Part shown: positions 1-59,812 of the stretch, piece after piece
Numbering within the stretch: position 1 is the first letter of the stretch
How the letters are laid out: every line of letters begins with the position of its first letter
Assembly: GCF_014651595.1 (NCBI RefSeq)
Contig: NZ_BMXE01000004.1
Coordinates: 186,001 to 250,000, forward strand
Reading direction: 5' to 3'
Length of the DNA: 64,000 bases
Source: Pseudovibrio japonicus
GTDB taxonomy: Bacteria > Pseudomonadota > Alphaproteobacteria > Rhizobiales > Stappiaceae
Notes under the pieces: generated by a model
Databases searched by the model: none
Seen by the model: the letters and a program-made list of their open reading frames with translations, nothing else
What the model was told of the DNA's origin: nothing
Made by a program: the position numbers and the translations under genes

Positions 1-2792
1 CGGGCCTGTCCGGCTCGGGCAAATCCTCACTGGCATTTGATACGATTTACGCTGAAGGGCAGCGCCGCTACGTTGAGAGCCTGAGCGCTTACGCCCGCCA
101 GTTCCTTGAAATGATGCAGAAACCGGACGTGGACCAGATCGACGGCCTGTCTCCTGCCATATCCATTGAACAGAAAACCACGTCAAAGAACCCACGCTCT
201 ACAGTTGGCACGGTCACCGAAATCTATGACTACATGCGCCTTTTATTCGCGCGCGTGGGCATTCCTTACTCCCCTGCAACGGGACTTCCCATTGAAAGCC
301 AGACCGTCTCCCAGATGGTCGACCGAATCCTGACACTCGAAGAAGGGACGCGTCTGTACCTGCTGGCCCCAATCGTACGTGGCCGCAAAGGGGAATATCG
401 TAAGGAACTCGCCGAGCTCATGAAAAAGGGCTTCCAACGTGTGAAAGTCGACGGCGAATACTATGAGATCGCAGATGCGCCCACGCTGGACAAAAAGTTC
501 AAACACGACATTGATGTGGTCGTTGACCGCATCGTCGTGCGCGAAGACATGGCGGGACGGTTGGCCGATTCTCTGGAAACCGCACTGGAACTGGCCGAAG
601 GCCTCGCAACTGTCGAGTTTGCGGATGAGAAAGACGAAAAAGGCAAGGCAAAGCAGCTGGTCTTCTCAGAAAAGTTCGCCTGCCCCGTCTCCGGCTTCAC
701 GATCCCGGAAATTGAACCACGCCTGTTCTCGTTCAACAACCCGTTCGGCGCCTGCCCGACCTGTGATGGTCTGGGTACAAAGCTTGCGTTTGAGGCCGAG
801 CTCGTTGTCCCGGATCAAACCCTGTCGCTGCGCGGCGGTGCCATTTTGCCATGGTCGAAGACCGGCTCCACGTCCCCTTATTACACGCAGACACTGGAAG
901 CCTTGGCCAAGCACTACAAGCAGCCGATGACCAAGGTCTGGAAGGACCTGCCGGAAGATTTCCGCAATGCGGTCCTGTTTGGTACAGGTAAAACCAAGGT
1001 GCAGTTCGTGTACGACGATGGCACCCGCTCTTACAAAACTGAAAAGCCATTTGAAGGCGTTGTCGGCAATATCGAGCGTCGTTGGCGTGAAACCGATTCC
1101 CAGATGGTGCGCGACGAGCTCTCCCGTTACCAGTCGGATCACGCCTGTGACGCCTGTAACGGTTACCGCCTGAAGCCGGAAGCGCTGTGCGTGAAGATTG
1201 CGGACCGCCATATCGGCGAGATCACAGCACTTTCCATCAAGACCGCCTATGACTGGTTCTCCAGCATCGATGAAAAGCTCACCGACAAGCAGAACGAAAT
1301 CGCCTACCGCATCCTCAAAGAAATTCGCGAGCGCCTGAAGTTCCTCAACGATGTGGGGCTGGAATACCTTTCCATGTCCCGCTCCTCCGGCACACTGTCC
1401 GGCGGTGAAAGCCAGCGTATTCGTCTGGCCTCCCAGATCGGCTCGGGCCTGACCGGTGTGTTGTATGTACTTGATGAACCCTCCATCGGCCTCCACCAGC
1501 GCGACAACGCCCGCCTGCTGGAAACTCTGAAACACCTGCGTGATCTGGGCAACACCGTCATCGTGGTGGAACACGACGAAGACGCCGTTCTGACCGCAGA
1601 TCATGTGGTGGATGTAGGACCAGGCGCTGGTATCCATGGCGGACAGGTGGTCGCACAGGGAACACCGGATGAAGTGATGGCCAATCCGGCCTCCCTCACT
1701 GGCAAGTACCTCTCTGGCAAAATGAGCATCCCGCAGCCGGAAGAGCCACGCAAGATCGACAAGAACCGCCAGATCAAAGTCTTCGGCGCCCGCGGCAACA
1801 ACCTGAAAGACGTGGATGCGACCATCCCGCTGGGAACATTTACCTGTGTAACGGGCGTATCCGGTGGCGGCAAATCCACATTCCTCATCGATACCGTCTA
1901 CAAGGCAACCGCTCGCCGCCTCAATGGCGCGCGCGATAACCCTGCCCCACATGATCGCATCGAAGGTCTGGAAAGGCTGGACAAAGTCATCGACATCGAC
2001 CAGTCCCCGATCGGCAGAACCCCACGCTCCAACCCCGCCACCTACACCGGTGCCTTCACTCCGATCCGCGAGTGGTTCGCAGGCATGCCCGAAGCAAAAG
2101 CGCGCGGCTACGCACCCGGGCGCTTCTCCTTCAACGTGAAGGGCGGACGCTGTGAAGCTTGTCAGGGCGACGGCGTCATCAAGATCGAGATGCACTTCCT
2201 TCCAGATGTCTATGTCACCTGTGATGTGTGTAAGGGCAAACGCTACAATCGCGAGACGCTGGAAGTTCAGTTCAAAGGCAAATCCATTGCAGACGTTCTG
2301 GACATGACTGTTGAAGAAGCAGCCGGTTTCTTCTCTGCTGTACCATCCATCCGCGATAAGATGGAAACCCTCGCCCGCGTCGGCCTCGGCTATATCAAGG
2401 TCGGCCAGCAGGCGACGACTCTGTCCGGCGGTGAAGCACAGCGCGTCAAGTTGGCCAAGGAGCTCTCCAAACGCTCAACGGGCCGCACCCTTTACATTCT
2501 GGATGAGCCGACAACAGGTCTCCACTTCCACGATGTCGCCAAACTGCTTGATGTGCTTCATCAGCTTGTCGATCAGGGCAACACGGTCCTCGTGATCGAG
2601 CACAATTTGGAAGTGATCAGAACGGCCGACTGGATTCTCGATCTGGGACCGGAAGGCGGTGACGGTGGCGGCACCATCGTAGCAACCGGACGCCCCCATG
2701 ATGTCGCAGAGGTGCCGGAAAGTTACACCGGCCAGTTCCTCAAGGAACTGTTCGTCCGGCGCAGCGCCAGCAATCTGGATGCAGCTGAATAA
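1..2792 (+). CDS. uvrA: Excinuclease ABC subunit UvrA (5' end outside window)
   Basis: DNA damage-recognition ATPase of nucleotide excision repair, which loads UvrB on lesions. The open frame enters at base 3 with the first Walker A (GLSGSGKSS), so only a short N-terminal piece is missing. Visible in order: the zinc-finger Cys pairs CPTCDG and CDACNG, the first ABC signature LSGGESQR with [11 protein letters not shown], a second Walker [10 protein letters not shown], the C-terminal zinc module (CEAC … [10 protein letters not shown]), the second signature LSGGEAQR and [11 protein letters not shown]. Both ATPase halves are intact. The gene is followed at once by a strong terminator, so it appears to end its transcript. 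Confidence 0.97.
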
Positions 2793-2797
2793 GAATC

Positions 2798-2826
2798 AAA
2801 GGCCGGGCCAGTCCCGGCCTTTTTTG
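2798..2826 (+). terminator. Rho-independent terminator of uvrA
   Basis: A 10-bp stem (AAAGGCCGGG / CCCGGCCTTT) with a short loop is followed by a run of T. It begins 6 bases after the uvrA stop codon. Confidence 0.9.
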
Positions 2827-3160
2827 TACAGACCACACTGCCGACCCAGCCAGTTTTTCATGGGCAATGCGGCACTTTTCAGCCCTGAAGGGCCTAATTC
2901 TGCACCTGACTAATTATGTCATTTGATTGAAGTTCGCTTAGGTTTTCACCACTGAACACTCAAAATAACCTCCCAGAGCGCTCAAGCTATGCATATTTGT
3001 GCTCAATATCACACAATTGCTGCATCGCACAATCGAGTATATTGCCATTTATGCCGATTTAAGTGGTGTTTGCGCCATCATTCGCCACAATGCCATGCAT
3101 TTTATGCATAACGGACATGCAAAATGATGTGGTGCACAATGCGACGGACTTATGTATAAA
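2827..3160. other. Non-coding leader region upstream of sRNA array
   Basis: AT-rich, with no plausible gene. It holds a perfect inverted repeat (ATGCAT-TTT-ATGCAT, 3095–3109), several TGCA/CAATGC repeats and one isolated CCTCCCA motif near 2972. A TATGTATAAAT stretch at 3151–3161 could be the -10 region for the downstream hairpin array; the -35 is not convincing. No DUF1127-type small ORF was found here. Confidence 0.4.
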
Positions 3161-3164
3161 TCAA

Positions 3165-3350
3165 CTCAAGGCCGCTGAGGAACTCCTCCCAATCAAGCCT
3201 CGGCAGCCCAACATATAATCCTCGGTAGCACCTCCTCCCAAGCTACCTGATGGATCTAAACAGAGATTTCCTCCCAGTTCTCTGTTTACTAGCTTCGCCC
3301 GTCGCTCCTCCCAACGACGGGCGTTAGCTGTTTCTGGGCCCTTTTTTCCG
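3165..3350 (+). ncRNA. Anti-Shine-Dalgarno sRNA array (four C-rich-loop hairpins)
   Basis: Four successive hairpins each expose a CUCCUCCC-type loop. SL1: 3171–3207, 10-bp stem with one mismatch, motif 3183–3191. SL2: GGTAGC/GCTACC 3224–3247, motif 3231–3240. SL3: perfect AAACAGAGA/TCTCTGTTT stem 3258–3287, motif 3269–3276. SL4: perfect GCCCGTCG/CGACGGGC stem 3297–3322, motif 3305–3313. A T6 run ends the unit at 3342–3347. Stem sequences differ while the loop is conserved, which argues for selection on the loop. Known families with this design are the CcsR 'cuckoo' RNAs of Rhodobacter and alpha-r14-type RNAs of Rhizobiales, whose loops resemble the 16S anti-SD. Strand is inferred from the loop sense and the T run. 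Whether it is one transcript or several processed RNAs cannot be read from the sequence. Confidence 0.72.
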
Positions 3351-3457: not shown

Positions 3458-4153
3458 TCACTTGGTGACCGGCTGCTCCAAATCCGCGCTGGTCATTCGC
3501 AGCCATCTGGACAGCGGCAGGATATCCGGGGGCTCCCCATTACTCAGGCGCCAGCTATCCACCACCCAGGGTGTGCCGGTGGTCGTGTCCACCACAACGG
3601 CAGAGGCATGCGGGTATTTCAAGTCCAGAAAGAAGCCGCGCGAGGCTGGATGCGTCACCCGGTGGTATTTGAGCCATCCCTGCGAGCTAAGGTAGGTTAG
3701 CAGGCTCGTGGTATTCGTTGCCTCATCAAGGCAATCCATCTGCCCCCTGACCTTGCTATGAGACATATCGAGCCCGCCAATATCGTTGGAGGACCCGACC
3801 ACGGGCCCAAGCCGCCGCTCTTGCCACTGCACCGCACCGGAAATTGCAGCCCGCTCCGCCTCTGGGCTTTCACTACCCCGCTGCAGAATCTGGTGTAAAT
3901 GGCGCTTATCTTGCTCGCTGAATGTAACTGGCGTTCGATATTCGCAGCCGAACCCGTGGCAGATATAAAGCGTGTTGCCCTTATTCTCCTGCGCGCCCAT
4001 TTTGGCGTACCACGTACTTGGCTGCGCATTAATCTGGCTCATGCAGGCACTTAGGCCGATCACACCAAGCGTAATCGCAAAGCCCCGGCAAAACACCGAG
4101 AAACTCTTTTTCGCAAAACACACGTGTTTATGTGAATCACTTTGCACAACCAT
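3458..4153 (-). CDS. Putative lipoprotein with Cys–His–Asp arrangement, unknown function
   Basis: A 231-residue protein from the ATG at 4153; an upstream in-frame TTG at 4216 would add 21 residues without an obvious RBS. The N-terminus is basic, then hydrophobic, then LSAC (Cys37), a lipobox pointing to a periplasmic lipoprotein. The C-terminal half contains Cys141 (QMDCLDEAT), His182 (YPHASAVVVD) and Asp199 (WVVDSW). This spacing recalls transglutaminase-like or papain-like cysteine enzymes, but I do not recognise the family. It reads toward the sRNA array and is divergent from trmFO. Confidence 0.75.
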   Translation of the reverse strand: MVVQSDSHKHVCFAKKSFSVFCRGFAITLGVIGLSACMSQINAQPSTWYAKMGAQENKGNTLYICHGFGCEYRTPVTFSEQDKRHLHQILQRGSESPEAERAAISGAVQWQERRLGPVVGSSNDIGGLDMSHSKVRGQMDCLDEATNTTSLLTYLSSQGWLKYHRVTHPASRGFFLDLKYPHASAVVVDTTTGTPWVVDSWRLSNGEPPDILPLSRWLRMTSADLEQPVTK

Positions 4154-4277
4154 GGAAGATTGATGGCCTAAATGATTGAACTGAGCAAGTTCTGAGGCTA
4201 AGCAATCCGCAAGCAAGAAAAACTTTGGCTTCTATGGACGTATTAGCGCAACAGAAGCCCAGTCGATTGGATAGGAA

Positions 4278-5675
4278 ATGACGAAGCAACCCATACACGT
4301 GGTTGGTGGCGGCCTGGCAGGTTCCGAAGCAGCCTGGCAGATTGCAGAAAAAGGCCTGAAGGTCGTCCTGCACGAAATGCGCCCGACACGTGAGACCGAT
4401 GCACACAAAACAGACGGCCTTGCAGAATTGGTATGCTCCAACTCATTCCGCTCTGACGATGCTGAAAACAACGCAGTTGGTCTGCTCCACGCCGAGCTAC
4501 GCGCAGCTGGCTCTCTAATCATGAAATCTGCAGATGCCAACAAGGTACCTGCGGGTGGCGCTCTGGCTGTTGACCGCGACGGCTTCTCCGAAGCTGTGCA
4601 GGCAGCACTGGAAGCCCATGAGAATGTCGAGATCATCCGCGAGGAGATCACCCAGATTCCGTCCGCGGAAAACGGTCAGGTCATTCTGGCAACCGGCCCG
4701 CTCACGTCTCCGGCCCTCTCCGAGCAGATCCTCAAGGCAACCGGCGAAGACTCCCTCGCCTTCTTTGATGCAATCGCGCCGATTATTCACACCGAGTCCA
4801 TCAATATGGACAAGGCCTGGTATCAGTCCCGCTACGACAAAGTCGGCCCGGGCGGGACCGGAAAAGACTACATCAACTGCCCGATGGACAAAGAGCAGTA
4901 TGAAGCCTTTATCGACGCATTGATCGGCGGCGAGAAAACCTCCTTCAAAGAATGGGAAGAAAACACACCCTATTTCGACGGCTGCCTTCCTATTGAAGTG
5001 ATGGCAGAACGTGGCCGCGAAACCTTGCGCCATGGCCCAATGAAACCAATGGGCCTGACCAACGCACACCAGCCAGACATCAAAGCCTACGCAGTTGTCC
5101 AGCTGCGTCAGGACAATGCTCTGGGCACGCTGTACAACATGGTTGGATTCCAGACCAAACTGAAGTACGGCGCACAGGCGGAGATCCTCCGTATGATCCC
5201 AGGCCTGGAAGACGCTCAGTTCGCACGTCTTGGCGGCCTGCACCGCAATACCTTCCTCAACTCCCCTCGTCTTCTGGATGAGCAAATGCGTCTCAAGGTC
5301 CTGCCGCACGTACGCTTTGCAGGCCAGATCACTGGCTGTGAAGGCTATGTGGAATCCACCGCCGTTGGTTGTCTGACTGGCCTGTTCGCAGCCCATCAGG
5401 CACTTGGGACAGACATTGCACCTCCGCCAGTAACAACTGCATGCGGCGCAATCGTCAACCACATCACCGGCGGCCACATTGATCGTGAAGATGGCTCAGG
5501 TCCGCGCTCATTCCAACCAATGAACATCAACTTCGGTCTGCTGCCCCCACTGGACGAGATGCCAAAGCATCCGGAAGGCAAACGTCTGCGCGGCAAGGAA
5601 AAGACCCGCCTGAAAAAGCAGGTCATGGCCAAGCGTGGTCTGGATGATTTCAAGGCATGGGTTGCCAACGTATAA
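4278..5675 (+). CDS. trmFO: Folate/FAD-dependent tRNA m5U54 methyltransferase TrmFO
   Basis: Makes 5-methyluridine at position 54 of the tRNA T-loop using methylenetetrahydrofolate and FADH2. The 465-residue protein starts with the FAD dinucleotide motif [12 protein letters not shown] and has the family block [11 protein letters not shown], whose Cys53 matches the catalytic cysteine numbering of the family. The C-terminal glycine-rich region ([12 protein letters not shown]) and the [13 protein letters not shown] block are also typical. It is monocistronic and ends at a strong bidirectional terminator shared with the convergent NDUFAF6-like gene. Confidence 0.96.
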
Positions 5676-39853: not shown

Positions 39854-40690
39854 CTATTGCGGCTTTCCAAGTACTTTCAGCACCTCATCTCTGGAAACAG
39901 CGCCCTCATATCCCATTTCGCTGCGAATATGAGCGACCACCTCAATGCGCTCCGCATTGTCTCGTGCAAGCTTGCCAGAGCCATGCCACAGGCTGTTCTC
40001 AAACCCAATCCGGGCATGCCCGCCATGGCCGAAGGCCAGTGCACCACACGCCGTCTCAGCACGCCCGAAAGCGCAGAGCATGAACGGATTGTCCTGAGCA
40101 ATATGTGAAGCTTCATCGCGGGCGGCAAGGAAACCGAGAAGATCACGCGGATCACTCTCCTGATCCTTGGCATAACGGCCGAGCACATAAAGCTGGCTAC
40201 CATAGCCGGCAGGCACAACGCCCTCATCCATCAGCAGATCAAGCCTGGCCACATCTTCCGGCGCATACAAGATATGCTGAACCGCACGGCCCGCTTCCTT
40301 AGCTTCATGATAGAACCGGCGTGCCAGATCTATATCACCGCCATCAGGCGCCATCTCGCGCAGGGCAACCGAAACTGCCTCTGGTTCAACCGCAGCGACA
40401 ACATCATACTGTTCCCGCGCGCTGTAAACGCCAACAGCTTCTGTGGTGATTTGAACCGCCAGATCAGGACACATGGCGCTCACTTCAAGAATGAGTTCCT
40501 TGTAAAGCACTGCGTCCAGAACATGTTTCCCCTCAGCGTCGCGAACGTGTGCATGGAGAGCATCCGCGCCCTCCGCTTCCACGCTCACCGCACAGGACAC
40601 CACCTCCTCAATCGTCACAGGCAACTGAGAGTGGTCCGCTTTGCCACGCCGTGCACCATTGGGCGCACTCATGATGAGCCGTTTGGTCAT
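39854..40690 (-). CDS. BKACE family protein (3-keto-5-aminohexanoate cleavage enzyme-like)
   Basis: A 278-residue beta-keto acid cleavage enzyme (formerly DUF849). Family blocks: APNGARRGKADHSQLPVTIE, the zinc-binding HAHVRDAEGKH, and C-terminal HARIGFENSLWHGSG. BKACEs condense a beta-keto acid with acetyl-CoA to give acetoacetate and a CoA ester; the beta-keto substrate cannot be read from sequence. The start overlaps the stop of the upstream class III aminotransferase by 4 bp, so the transaminase probably makes the keto-acid substrate. Confidence 0.9.
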   Translation of the reverse strand: MTKRLIMSAPNGARRGKADHSQLPVTIEEVVSCAVSVEAEGADALHAHVRDAEGKHVLDAVLYKELILEVSAMCPDLAVQITTEAVGVYSAREQYDVVAAVEPEAVSVALREMAPDGGDIDLARRFYHEAKEAGRAVQHILYAPEDVARLDLLMDEGVVPAGYGSQLYVLGRYAKDQESDPRDLLGFLAARDEASHIAQDNPFMLCAFGRAETACGALAFGHGGHARIGFENSLWHGSGKLARDNAERIEVVAHIRSEMGYEGAVSRDEVLKVLGKPQ

Positions 40691-57219: not shown

Positions 57220-58659
57220 TTATCTTGAACTGCGGATCACCTGCACATCCAGATCCCGTATCTTCTTGCGCAGTGTGTTGCGGTTCACACCCAGAAGCTC
57301 CGCCGCCTTGATCTGGTTGCCGCGCGTTGCAGCAAGCACCGCACTGATCAGCGGATACTCCACCTCCCGCAAAACCCGGTGGTAAAGGCCAGGAGGCGGC
57401 AACTCCTCACCAAAGCCGCTGAAATAATCCCCCAGATACCGCTCCACAGAGCCACCCAGATCCTGAGAAGACGGCACCTCCGCTTCACTCGCCCCGTTGG
57501 ACGGCTGCGACAGCTCCAGATCAATCAGGCTCGCCGAGATATCATCCTGCGGATAAAGCGCAGCCAAACGGCGCACAAGGTTTTCCAGCTCTCGCACATT
57601 GCCCGGCCAGCGATAACGGCGCAGCTTATCAAGCGCAGCCACTTCAATCTGCTTGGCAGGCAAACCTTCACTCTCAGCCATGGAGAAGAAGTGCCGCACC
57701 AGATCAGGAATATCCTCGGTCCGCTCCCGCAAAGGCGGAAGCCGGATCGGAACAACATTGAGCCGGAAATACAAATCCTCACGGAACAGCCCCTGATTAA
57801 TCAGCTGACGCAAATCCTTGTTGGTCGCCGCAATAATCCGCACATCCGTCTGGATAGGCGTGCGCCCGCCAACGGAGGTATATTCCCCCTGCTGCAGAAC
57901 GCGCAGCAACCGGGTCTGTGCCTCCATCGGCATATCGCCAATCTCATCCAGCAAGAGCGTTCCGCCATCAGCCTGCTCGAACCGGCCCGAGGAACGCGCC
58001 TGTGCACCTGTAAATGAGCCCTTCTCATGACCAAACAACTCAGATTCAATCAGATCTTTCGGGATCGCCGCCATATTAACCGCAACAAACGGACCATTCC
58101 GGCGTTTCCCATAATCATGCAGTGCCCGCGCGACCACCTCTTTACCGGTGCCGCTCTCACCATTGATCATCACGGTCAGGTCGGTCTGCATTAAGCGCGC
58201 CAGCACGCGGTAGATTTCCTGCATGGCAGGCGAACGGCCAACCAGCGGAATGTTGTCATTCCCCTCACCGCCCATATCAAAGTGACGCCCCTTAGGCTCC
58301 GCCAGTGCGCGTCCTACAATTCCGGTCAGCTCTTTCAAATCGAAGGGCTTGGGAAGATACTCATAGGCACCATGCTCGGAGGCCTTAATGGCAGTCATGA
58401 AGGTGTTCTGCGCACTCATGATGATCACTGGCAGCTCAGGACGCAGCTTGCGGATGCGCGGCAGCACATCAAACGCGTTCTCATCCGGCATCACCACATC
58501 GGAAATCACCAGATCCCCTTCACCCGAACTCACCCAGCGCCACAACGTCGTCGCGTTGGATGTCAGTCGGACGGTATAGCCCGCACGAGACAGAGCCTGA
58601 TTGAGAACGGTACGGATCGCAGAATCGTCGTCAGCAACTAAAATGGTTCCACTCGGCAT
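57220..58659 (-). CDS. ntrC: Nitrogen regulation protein NR(I) NtrC
   Basis: A 479-residue sigma-54 activator of nitrogen assimilation genes. The receiver has phospho-Asp54 ([11 protein letters not shown]). The AAA+ domain has [18 protein letters not shown] and an intact GSFTGA loop ([17 protein letters not shown]), unlike NtrX. The C-terminal Fis HTH is [20 protein letters not shown]. The ATG at 58659 has GAGG upstream and follows the ntrB stop by 4 bp, so the two are coupled. Confidence 0.96.
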
Positions 58660-58663
58660 ACTC

Positions 58664-59812
58664 TTAGTCCTCAATTCCATTAGTCACGTCTGGCCCGGTA
58701 AAGGCAGGCATCAAAATGCGGAAGGTCGTCCCCCGACTACCACTCTCACATTCCACCACGCCGCCATGATCCCCCACGATCTTGGCAACCAATGCCAGCC
58801 CAAGGCCGGAGCCATTCGTCTTTGTTGTAATAAACGGATCAAACAGATGCGGCCGCAGATCTTCCGGCACCCCGCTGCCGTTGTCGCGCACGCAAAACTC
58901 CAGCGGCAAGCTCACACGCTCCTGCACGCCCGGCACAGACAATCGCACGCCCGGGCGGAAGGCCGTTGAGATTACAATCTCAGGCTCATGCACGCCATTC
59001 AGCGCTTCACTCGCGTTCTTGATCAGATTGATGAACACCTGCACCAGCTGGTCCCGGTTGGCATAAACCGGCGGTAGGGACGGATCATAATCCTCTACAA
59101 TCCGCACTTTGGAAGCAAAACCGTTTTCCGCAACACGTTTCACATGGTCCAGCACCACGTGAATATTCACCGGCTCACGGTCAATCGGACGTTCATCGGA
59201 AAACACTTCCATCCGGTCAACCAGCTTCACGATCCGGTCCGTCTCCTCCATGATCAGGCGTGTCAGTGAACGATCTTCCTCACTGGCAGATTGCTCCAGA
59301 AGCTGAGCGGCCCCGCGAATGCCCGAGAGTGGATTCTTGATCTCATGGGCCAGCATCGCCGCAAGGCCCGTCACCGTGCGCGCTGCCCCCCGGCTGGTCA
59401 GCTGCTTATCCAGCTTTTCGGCCATGGTGCGCTCCTGAAAAAGCAGCACAACATTTCCCGGAGCCTCGCTTAGCGGTGAGGCATGAATATCAACCAGCTT
59501 TTCCTGTCCAATACGCGGCGTACCAATATCCACCTTGTATTCGTTGACCGCCCCGCCGCGTTCACGCACTTGTGCAATCAAGCCCAGCAATGGACTGCCA
59601 AACGGCACAAACCAAGACACCTCCCGGCGCTTCATCACAGAAAGGCTGGCATGGAAGAAGTCTTCCGCCGCGCTGTTTGCGCCAACAATCTTGTCGTCGC
59701 CGCCAACCACCACAACAGGATGCGGCAGGGAATCCAGAACCGCCTGCCCGGTCATGCCCTTAGTCAAGGCATCAGCAGCCTTCGTCAGAGTATCTCCCCC
59801 AGTCTCCCTCAT
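58664..59812 (-). CDS. ntrB: Nitrogen regulation sensor kinase NtrB
   Basis: A 382-residue cytosolic kinase/phosphatase controlled by PII. An N-terminal PAS region (about 25–130) precedes the phospho-His block [20 protein letters not shown] and ATPase boxes [30 protein letters not shown]. The start overlaps the dusB stop as TGATG. NtrC follows. Confidence 0.95.

Follow-up and report, generated by a model that had tools for sequence, protein, structure and literature searches.

An anti-Shine-Dalgarno hairpin array without a DUF1127 neighbor between uvrA and trmFO in Pseudovibrio

RNAs built of hairpins with anti-Shine-Dalgarno (aSD) loops are recurrently linked to DUF1127, and whether such RNAs need the DUF1127 protein is the question at stake. 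The DUF1127-CcsR association constitutes the CIN1 locus, its DUF1127 protein CcaF1 is reported to participate in the processing of its RNAs, and CIN1 of Rhodobacter combines an RpoHI/RpoHII promoter with RNase E processing (available part of PMC10253847). Here we analyzed a locus of Pseudovibrio japonicus at which aSD hairpins stand between uvrA and trmFO without DUF1127. It lies in a 64,000-nt stretch of DNA, hereafter called the window.

Sequence reading and folding revealed four hairpins in a row on the plus strand of the window (3170-3330), with UCCUCCC within every loop. This agrees with the original prediction, made from the letters of the window, of four consecutive hairpins at 3165-3350. 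From hairpin 1 to hairpin 4, the loops are AACUCCUCCCAAUCAAG, ACCUCCUCCCAA, UUUCCUCCCAGU and CUCCUCCCAA. A CCUCCUCCC-type loop had been proposed for each hairpin; UCCUCCC is indeed present in four of four, while the full 9-mer CCUCCUCCC is found in one of four. The array folds at -68.5 kcal/mol (z -6.46), and none of 200 shuffled sequences was as good. Furthermore, four hairpins with a CCTCCC loop fall within 180 nt in the real window, while 100 first-order Markov simulations yielded one such hairpin in 86 cases and none in 14. The 8-mer CTCCTCCC was not enriched genome-wide (137 occurrences versus 151 for the reversed control), and neither was CTCCTCCCAA at up to one mismatch within the window (4 found, 5.0 expected). 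Since the bare loop motif is enriched neither in the genome nor in the window, the signal of the array lies in its clustering and its stems.

The 3' end of the 16S rRNA, the aSD end, contains CCUCC. The suggested mimicry of this end by the loops holds insofar as CCUCC is common to both; nothing was found that shows mimicry of the ribosome. Hairpin 4 has an additional outer stem (3290-3294 with 3326-3330) and is missing from the terminator scan, whose loop limit of 8 is below the loop size of this hairpin. The T6 run that had been described after the array is present, but it is not conserved in the genus. What recurs as a terminator-like element when the 14 genus intervals are aligned is hairpin 4 together with a short U-rich stretch behind it. 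The features of the locus are listed in Table 1.

Table 1. Features of the uvrA-trmFO locus in the window
Feature	Position	Strand	Remarks
uvrA	111..2792	+	Upstream neighbor; NCBIfam UvrA 1460 bits (cut-off 1147)
Terminator-like dyad after uvrA	2798-2822	+	Hairpin and T run; terminator-like site scan
LysR-type (LsrB/VtlR-like) box TGCA-N6-GCAT-N6-CATGC	3096-3120	+	Predicted site, spanning about -70 to -46 relative to the inferred start
-10-like hexamer GTATAA	3154..3159	+	Putative; CTATAT in some relatives; from the 14-interval alignment, by eye
Hairpin 1	3170-3208	+	Loop 3181-3197 with CUCCUCCC; sequence, fold, genus alignment, pair table
Hairpin 2	3218-3255	+	Loop 3230-3241 with CCUCCUCCC; 4/6 inner pairs changed on both sides
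Hairpin 3	3257-3288	+	Loop with UUCCUCCC; the two parts of its stem, the weakest of the four, have 71% and 86% paired cells
Hairpin 4	3296-3323	+	Loop 3305-3314 CUCCUCCCAA; 99% of cells paired; possible intrinsic terminator
T6 run	3342-3347	+	Possible site of termination farther downstream; alignment shows no conservation in the genus
Lipoprotein-like ORF	3458..4216	-	Lipoprotein by the original prediction and by look
trmFO	4278..5675	+	Anchors the downstream side of the conserved interval; NCBIfam TrmFO 674 bits (cut-off 262)

An Rfam search of the window at gathering level gave no match. Below that level, the alpha-r14 model (RF02344) matched the plus strand over the array at 51.7 bits (E 2.2e-8; gathering cut-off 58.8), a covariance-model result that supports the proposed kinship with alpha-r14. 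The RF02344 cut-off was exceeded in 61 of 87 family genomes and reached by no Pseudovibrio genome, the best score in the genus being 57.2 (G014). Nine of 14 control genomes also gave an alpha-r14 match at E ≤ 10, all of them below the cut-off; at E ≤ 0.001, no control did. The array resembles NfeR1/alpha-r14 (Smr14C2, SmelC397) as described in the available part of PMC10746234 by its consecutive hairpins, CCUCCUCCC-type loops (the full 9-mer in one of four) and diverged stems, which drift while the loops hardly change. It differs by having four hairpins instead of three, by scoring below the Rfam gathering level and by its location between uvrA and trmFO.

The array is also a tandem of at least two hairpins, each with a CCUCC-containing aSD loop, which is how the variable-module aSD hairpin RNAs ('cuckoo') are delimited in the accessible part of PMC3927594. 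There, three- and four-hairpin aSD RNAs from Sinorhizobium-based families were reported in 2011 and one variable-module family was proposed. Thus, the array alone is not new. RFMSmelA099, a 'cuckoo' RNA, likewise has four hairpins each with an aSD loop, but differs in genus and locus. CcsR1-4 of the Rhodobacter sphaeroides CIN1 locus consist of the same kind of hairpin. The sX13 RNA (RF02232), a Xanthomonadaceae family by its Rfam name, likewise has several C-rich loops and matched weakly (26.8 bits, cut-off 50, E 0.0067).

A blastn search with the region matched 13 of 61 genomes. All 13 belong to the genus, of which 16 genomes were searched, and one is the source genome of the window; the 45 genomes from elsewhere gave no match. 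An aSD array was present in the uvrA-trmFO interval of all 14 genus genomes with uvrA near trmFO in the fetched stretch. Genome G001 has an array beside uvrA; G011 has none there and, in a search with stricter filters, no alpha-r14 match at E ≤ 0.001. Thirteen of the 14 intervals contain four loop motifs and one (G013) contains five; the hairpin scan scored just three of the four hairpins in G008 and G012. In alignment A1 (14 rows, with G001, without G008, and with the poorly aligned rows G013 and G001 kept), 22 of 28 loop columns but only 15 of 64 stem columns are invariant. Taken as 32 pairs of a structure that was drawn from one of the aligned sequences, the four stems have 89.3% of their cells paired. 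Eleven pairs have changes on both sides (19 cells, versus 4-11 cells for slid partners), although partners slid by +2 still give 10 double-change pairs (11 cells). The covariation score was 0.238, compared to 0.055-0.103 for slid partners, and was reached in none of 500 shuffles. Among the covariation measures, two are weak: 11 double-change pairs versus a shuffled mean of 6.0 (11 reached in 6 of 500 shuffles), and 31 further pair types versus 28.4 (31 reached in 68 of 500). This comparison of the intergenic region in relatives supports the earlier view that the loops are selected while the stems drift: across Pseudovibrio, the loops are near-invariant, and the stems change partly by paired substitutions.

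A transcript start near 3165 is predicted from the sequence, with a -10-like hexamer before it; a generic sigma-70 scan found no promoter site for the array. The box farther upstream appears similar to the LsrB/VtlR sites of the NfeR1 and abcR promoters. Its TGCA-N6-GCAT part (3096-3109) occurs on the plus strand of the window just there and at 40550. According to the available part of PMC10746234, the LsrB site on NfeR1 is TGCA-N6-GCAT at -72 to about -57/-60, which is approximately the distance between the box and the inferred start in the window. The LsrB/VtlR consensus is GCAT-N3-TG-N3-T in the portion of PMC8844928 at hand, and the core site of the window differs from it by one mismatch (GCATAACGGACAT). 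At the core site of the 14 genus arrays, this consensus is exact in four, has GG for TG in nine and is absent in G014. For Brucella, the accessible text of PMC12595884 gives the VtlR site as CAATGCAGCCATGCA and describes activation of three DUF1127 genes and AbcR2 by VtlR. The pattern TGC[ACG]-N6-GCAT[AG]NC-N5-TGC was devised with the sequences in view, and the genomes are related. It precedes the array in 12 of 14 Pseudovibrio intervals and DUF1127 in 51 of the 55 sister intervals, giving 63 of 69 in total, and is absent from all 50 dinucleotide-shuffled sets. The pattern-scan matches listed include 44 arrays of at least three hairpins; in 20 of these, all from outside Pseudovibrio, a similar GCAT core precedes the first stem by 53-68 nt.

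The surroundings of the array differ between Pseudovibrio and its relatives. Of the 87 family genomes analyzed, 86 have trmFO (G089 has no trmFO match), and in 69 the uvrA end lies within the stretch analyzed upstream of trmFO, which for the source genome was taken from the window and for the other 85 from their own sequences; the 17 genomes outside the interval counts are 14 of genus g5, G011, G001 and G071 (contig end). In the sister genera g2, g3, g4, g6 and g7, each of the 55 uvrA-trmFO intervals contains DUF1127, detected by profile search, together with two or more aSD hairpins. This count is partly by construction, since the profile was built from motif-found sister-genus ORFs, and it is not one of independent cases, because the genomes are related. 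Pfam confirmed DUF1127 in six of six sister ORFs tested. By contrast, the profile search found DUF1127 in none of the 16 Pseudovibrio genomes (14 uvrA-trmFO intervals, and beside uvrA in G001 and G011), in agreement with the original prediction that no DUF1127 gene adjoins the array. The position of the hairpins is similar: they lie at +396 to +518 after uvrA in the window and at about +400 to +510 in many sister genomes, with DUF1127 just before them. Thus, the array of the window stands at a locus that carries DUF1127 in relatives, and DUF1127 directly upstream of the hairpins, as in CIN1/CcsR, is found in the sister genera but not here. The two DUF1127 matches over the cut-off in the source genome are on contigs C1 and C7, while the array is on C4. 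ORFs similar to the lipoprotein-like ORF, for which no Pfam match was found, precede trmFO in many family genomes (tblastn).

Among the Brucellaceae-type DUF1127-linked loci examined, which include the one from a MAG labeled Xylophilus, seven of eight have the order DUF1127-array-trmFO, with trmFO ~85-210 nt after the array; for the eighth (L099), no trmFO was found in the available stretch. The searched form of the box was not found before DUF1127 in any of these eight loci, which argues against one promoter shared across all lineages. Among the matches listed, ten Rhizobiaceae arrays follow a DUF1127 motif at a distance of 236-400 nt, and a GCAT core or box lies between the two; other Rhizobiales arrays lack DUF1127 within 500 nt. 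Thus, Pseudovibrio is not the only group with arrays that lack DUF1127. Its specific trait is that DUF1127 is missing between uvrA and trmFO, where the gene is present in every sister genome examined that has this gene order. This absence is a real, derived-looking trait. Its simplest reading is loss of DUF1127 in Pseudovibrio, and the order DUF1127-array-trmFO in Brucellaceae-type genomes points to this. Within the limits of the literature collection searched, we found no publication on the Pseudovibrio or Roseibium locus. What is new is the history of the locus, with box and hairpins kept and DUF1127 absent, compared to sister genera with all three.

A pattern scan of genome contigs found at least 118 stretches; 36 of the matches listed have at least three hairpins scoring at least 15. 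Of these 36, 33 are from records labeled alphaproteobacterial, one (L143) is labeled Xylophilus, and two (L131 and L136) are short tandem repeats in other phyla. The other 82 of the matches listed have fewer hairpins and include alphaproteobacterial stretches (L073, L109, L155 and L163). At the looser score of 13, at least three hairpins were also found in five non-alphaproteobacterial stretches among the matches listed (L065, L081, L090, L140 and L165). L143 is from a MAG and has a Brucellaceae-like DUF1127-array-trmFO region, and may be a mis-binned contig. In Amylibacter cionae (L087:193-740, reverse orientation), the scan detected twelve aSD hairpins, arranged as a tandem repeat (~94 nt) with two hairpins per unit. 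Expansion of modules was also seen in L267 (G020), with four three-hairpin units after one DUF1127, and in L225 (G100), with five DUF1127-like ORFs.

Two more loci of the source genome, L011 and L010, are alpha-r14-like with E below 1e-5. L011 (L269:2113-2420; C3:341.6-341.9 kb, minus strand) is a second array, in which the scan detected four hairpins and inspection by eye a fifth loop, of GGGAGG type. It is flanked by prmA (NCBIfam 301.6 bits, cut-off 244) and a Xaa-Pro peptidase-like gene that reached no NCBIfam cut-off, and has a similar LysR-type box upstream and relatives in 10 of 16 genus genomes. L010 (L270:2042-2134; C9:46.0 kb) has two aSD hairpins with a T run after the second; its RF02344 score of 43.7 bits is below the cut-off, and it also matches ncS54 weakly. 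A third, weaker alpha-r14 match, L012, is better read as an alpha-r15/AbcR-like sRNA (RF02345, 34.4 bits, cut-off 40). It shares a stretch (L271:2015-4367; C3:210-212.4 kb) with trxB (TIGR01292 412.5 bits, cut-off 343.45) and a gene for a LysR-family regulator (Pfam). Upstream of this sRNA is an exact GCAT-N3-TG-N3-T site. The order trxB-LysR-sRNA is described for VtlR/LsrB in Rhizobiales in the available part of PMC7486931, and by position, the regulator beside L012 is a putative LsrB/VtlR ortholog.

Could the array have arrived at this site as a ready-made unit? Recombination or duplication, with the prmA locus as one conceivable source, might have put a stand-alone array of the NfeR1 type, complete with promoter, in place of the old module. 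Such units exist: among the matches listed, arrays of other Rhizobiales (L083, L108, L110, L116, L122, L121 and L127) stand alone, having a GCAT core but DUF1127 nowhere within 500 nt. In addition, 10 of 16 Pseudovibrio genomes have the prmA array with its similar box. Replacement is nevertheless improbable in our view. The same box is upstream of DUF1127 at the uvrA-trmFO site in the great majority of sister intervals (see above), so no new promoter is needed for the Pseudovibrio array; by eye, the last stem (CGCCCGYCG) is nearer to ACGCCCGCC of the sister genera than to GCCTGCCGC of many Rhizobiaceae arrays; and the prmA array was found in just part of the genus.

Independence and orientation of the RNA can also be questioned. 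The hairpins are on the uvrA strand, ~380 nt downstream of this gene, and the generic scan detected no sigma-70 site, both of which would fit a part of the uvrA 3' UTR or of another gene's leader. This reading is quite unlikely, since uvrA has its own terminator-like hairpin and T run, the uvrA-to-array spacer is poorly conserved in the 14 genus intervals while box and array are conserved, and the next, lipoprotein-like ORF is on the opposite strand. Read on the minus strand, the hairpin loops contain GGGAGGA and could act as CsrA/RsmA sponges; GGA in hairpin loops is a feature of the CsrB/RsmZ RNAs. We rejected this extremely unlikely reading mainly on G.U polarity: in the structure drawn from the plus strand, 37 cells are G.U and 15 are A.C, which favors the plus strand. 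The box (12 of 14 intervals), the U-rich stretch after hairpin 4 and the plus-strand Rfam matches over the array also fit the plus orientation.

We therefore prefer, and hold to be quite probable, the reading that ~3165 to ~3330-3347 corresponds to a ~165-nt stand-alone, trans-acting aSD sRNA, switched by a LysR-type regulator and descended from an old DUF1127 operon. In the ancestors of the family, an operon of promoter, DUF1127 and hairpins would have been located before trmFO, and loss of DUF1127 in Pseudovibrio would have placed the old promoter directly before the hairpins. The sRNA would probably be switched on by an LsrB/VtlR-type LysR regulator via the box, under oxidative or nutrient stress. 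The UCCUCCC loop of each hairpin would then pair with ribosome-binding sites and thereby stop the translation of many mRNAs; the four loops would be interchangeable copies of one tool. In the available part of PMC10746234, the three aSD loops of NfeR1 are redundant in their action on translation initiation regions, among them that of ntrB. By this precedent, the putative sRNA should silence many mRNAs by pairing with their Shine-Dalgarno sequences.

The NfeR1 target ntrB of Sinorhizobium (PMC10746234, available part) has a probable counterpart in the same window as the array. It is located at 58664-59812 (minus strand) and is assigned by position; its NR(II) score (177.9) falls short of the cut-off (240), while ntrC at 57220-58680 (minus strand) is over the NCBIfam cut-off. 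The start region of the probable ntrB contains GAGGAG and GGGGGAG, with GAGGAG upstream of the listed start. By energy of the duplex with the array, the probable ntrB ranks ninth among 52 window genes; this singles out no target and is compatible with pairing but not specific. Such a ranking in the window is uninformative, because any Shine-Dalgarno sequence pairs with an aSD loop.

Somewhat speculatively, and with little confidence, we also consider what the aSD hairpins might do once freed from their DUF1127 partner. They could form a multivalent RNA that remains unprocessed and, working without the RNA-binding/processing protein, occupies several ribosome-binding sites at once with its four (or five) loops, serving as a stress-induced brake on translation; the two arrays and the alpha-r15-like sRNA would then be under one LysR regulator. 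Independently of this idea, Pseudovibrio, with box and hairpins and without DUF1127, and the five sister genera with all three provide a ready-made comparison for the need of aSD hairpin RNAs for the protein. In addition, this contrast suggests that one LysR-type switch drives a DUF1127 operon in some lineages and a stand-alone RNA in others.
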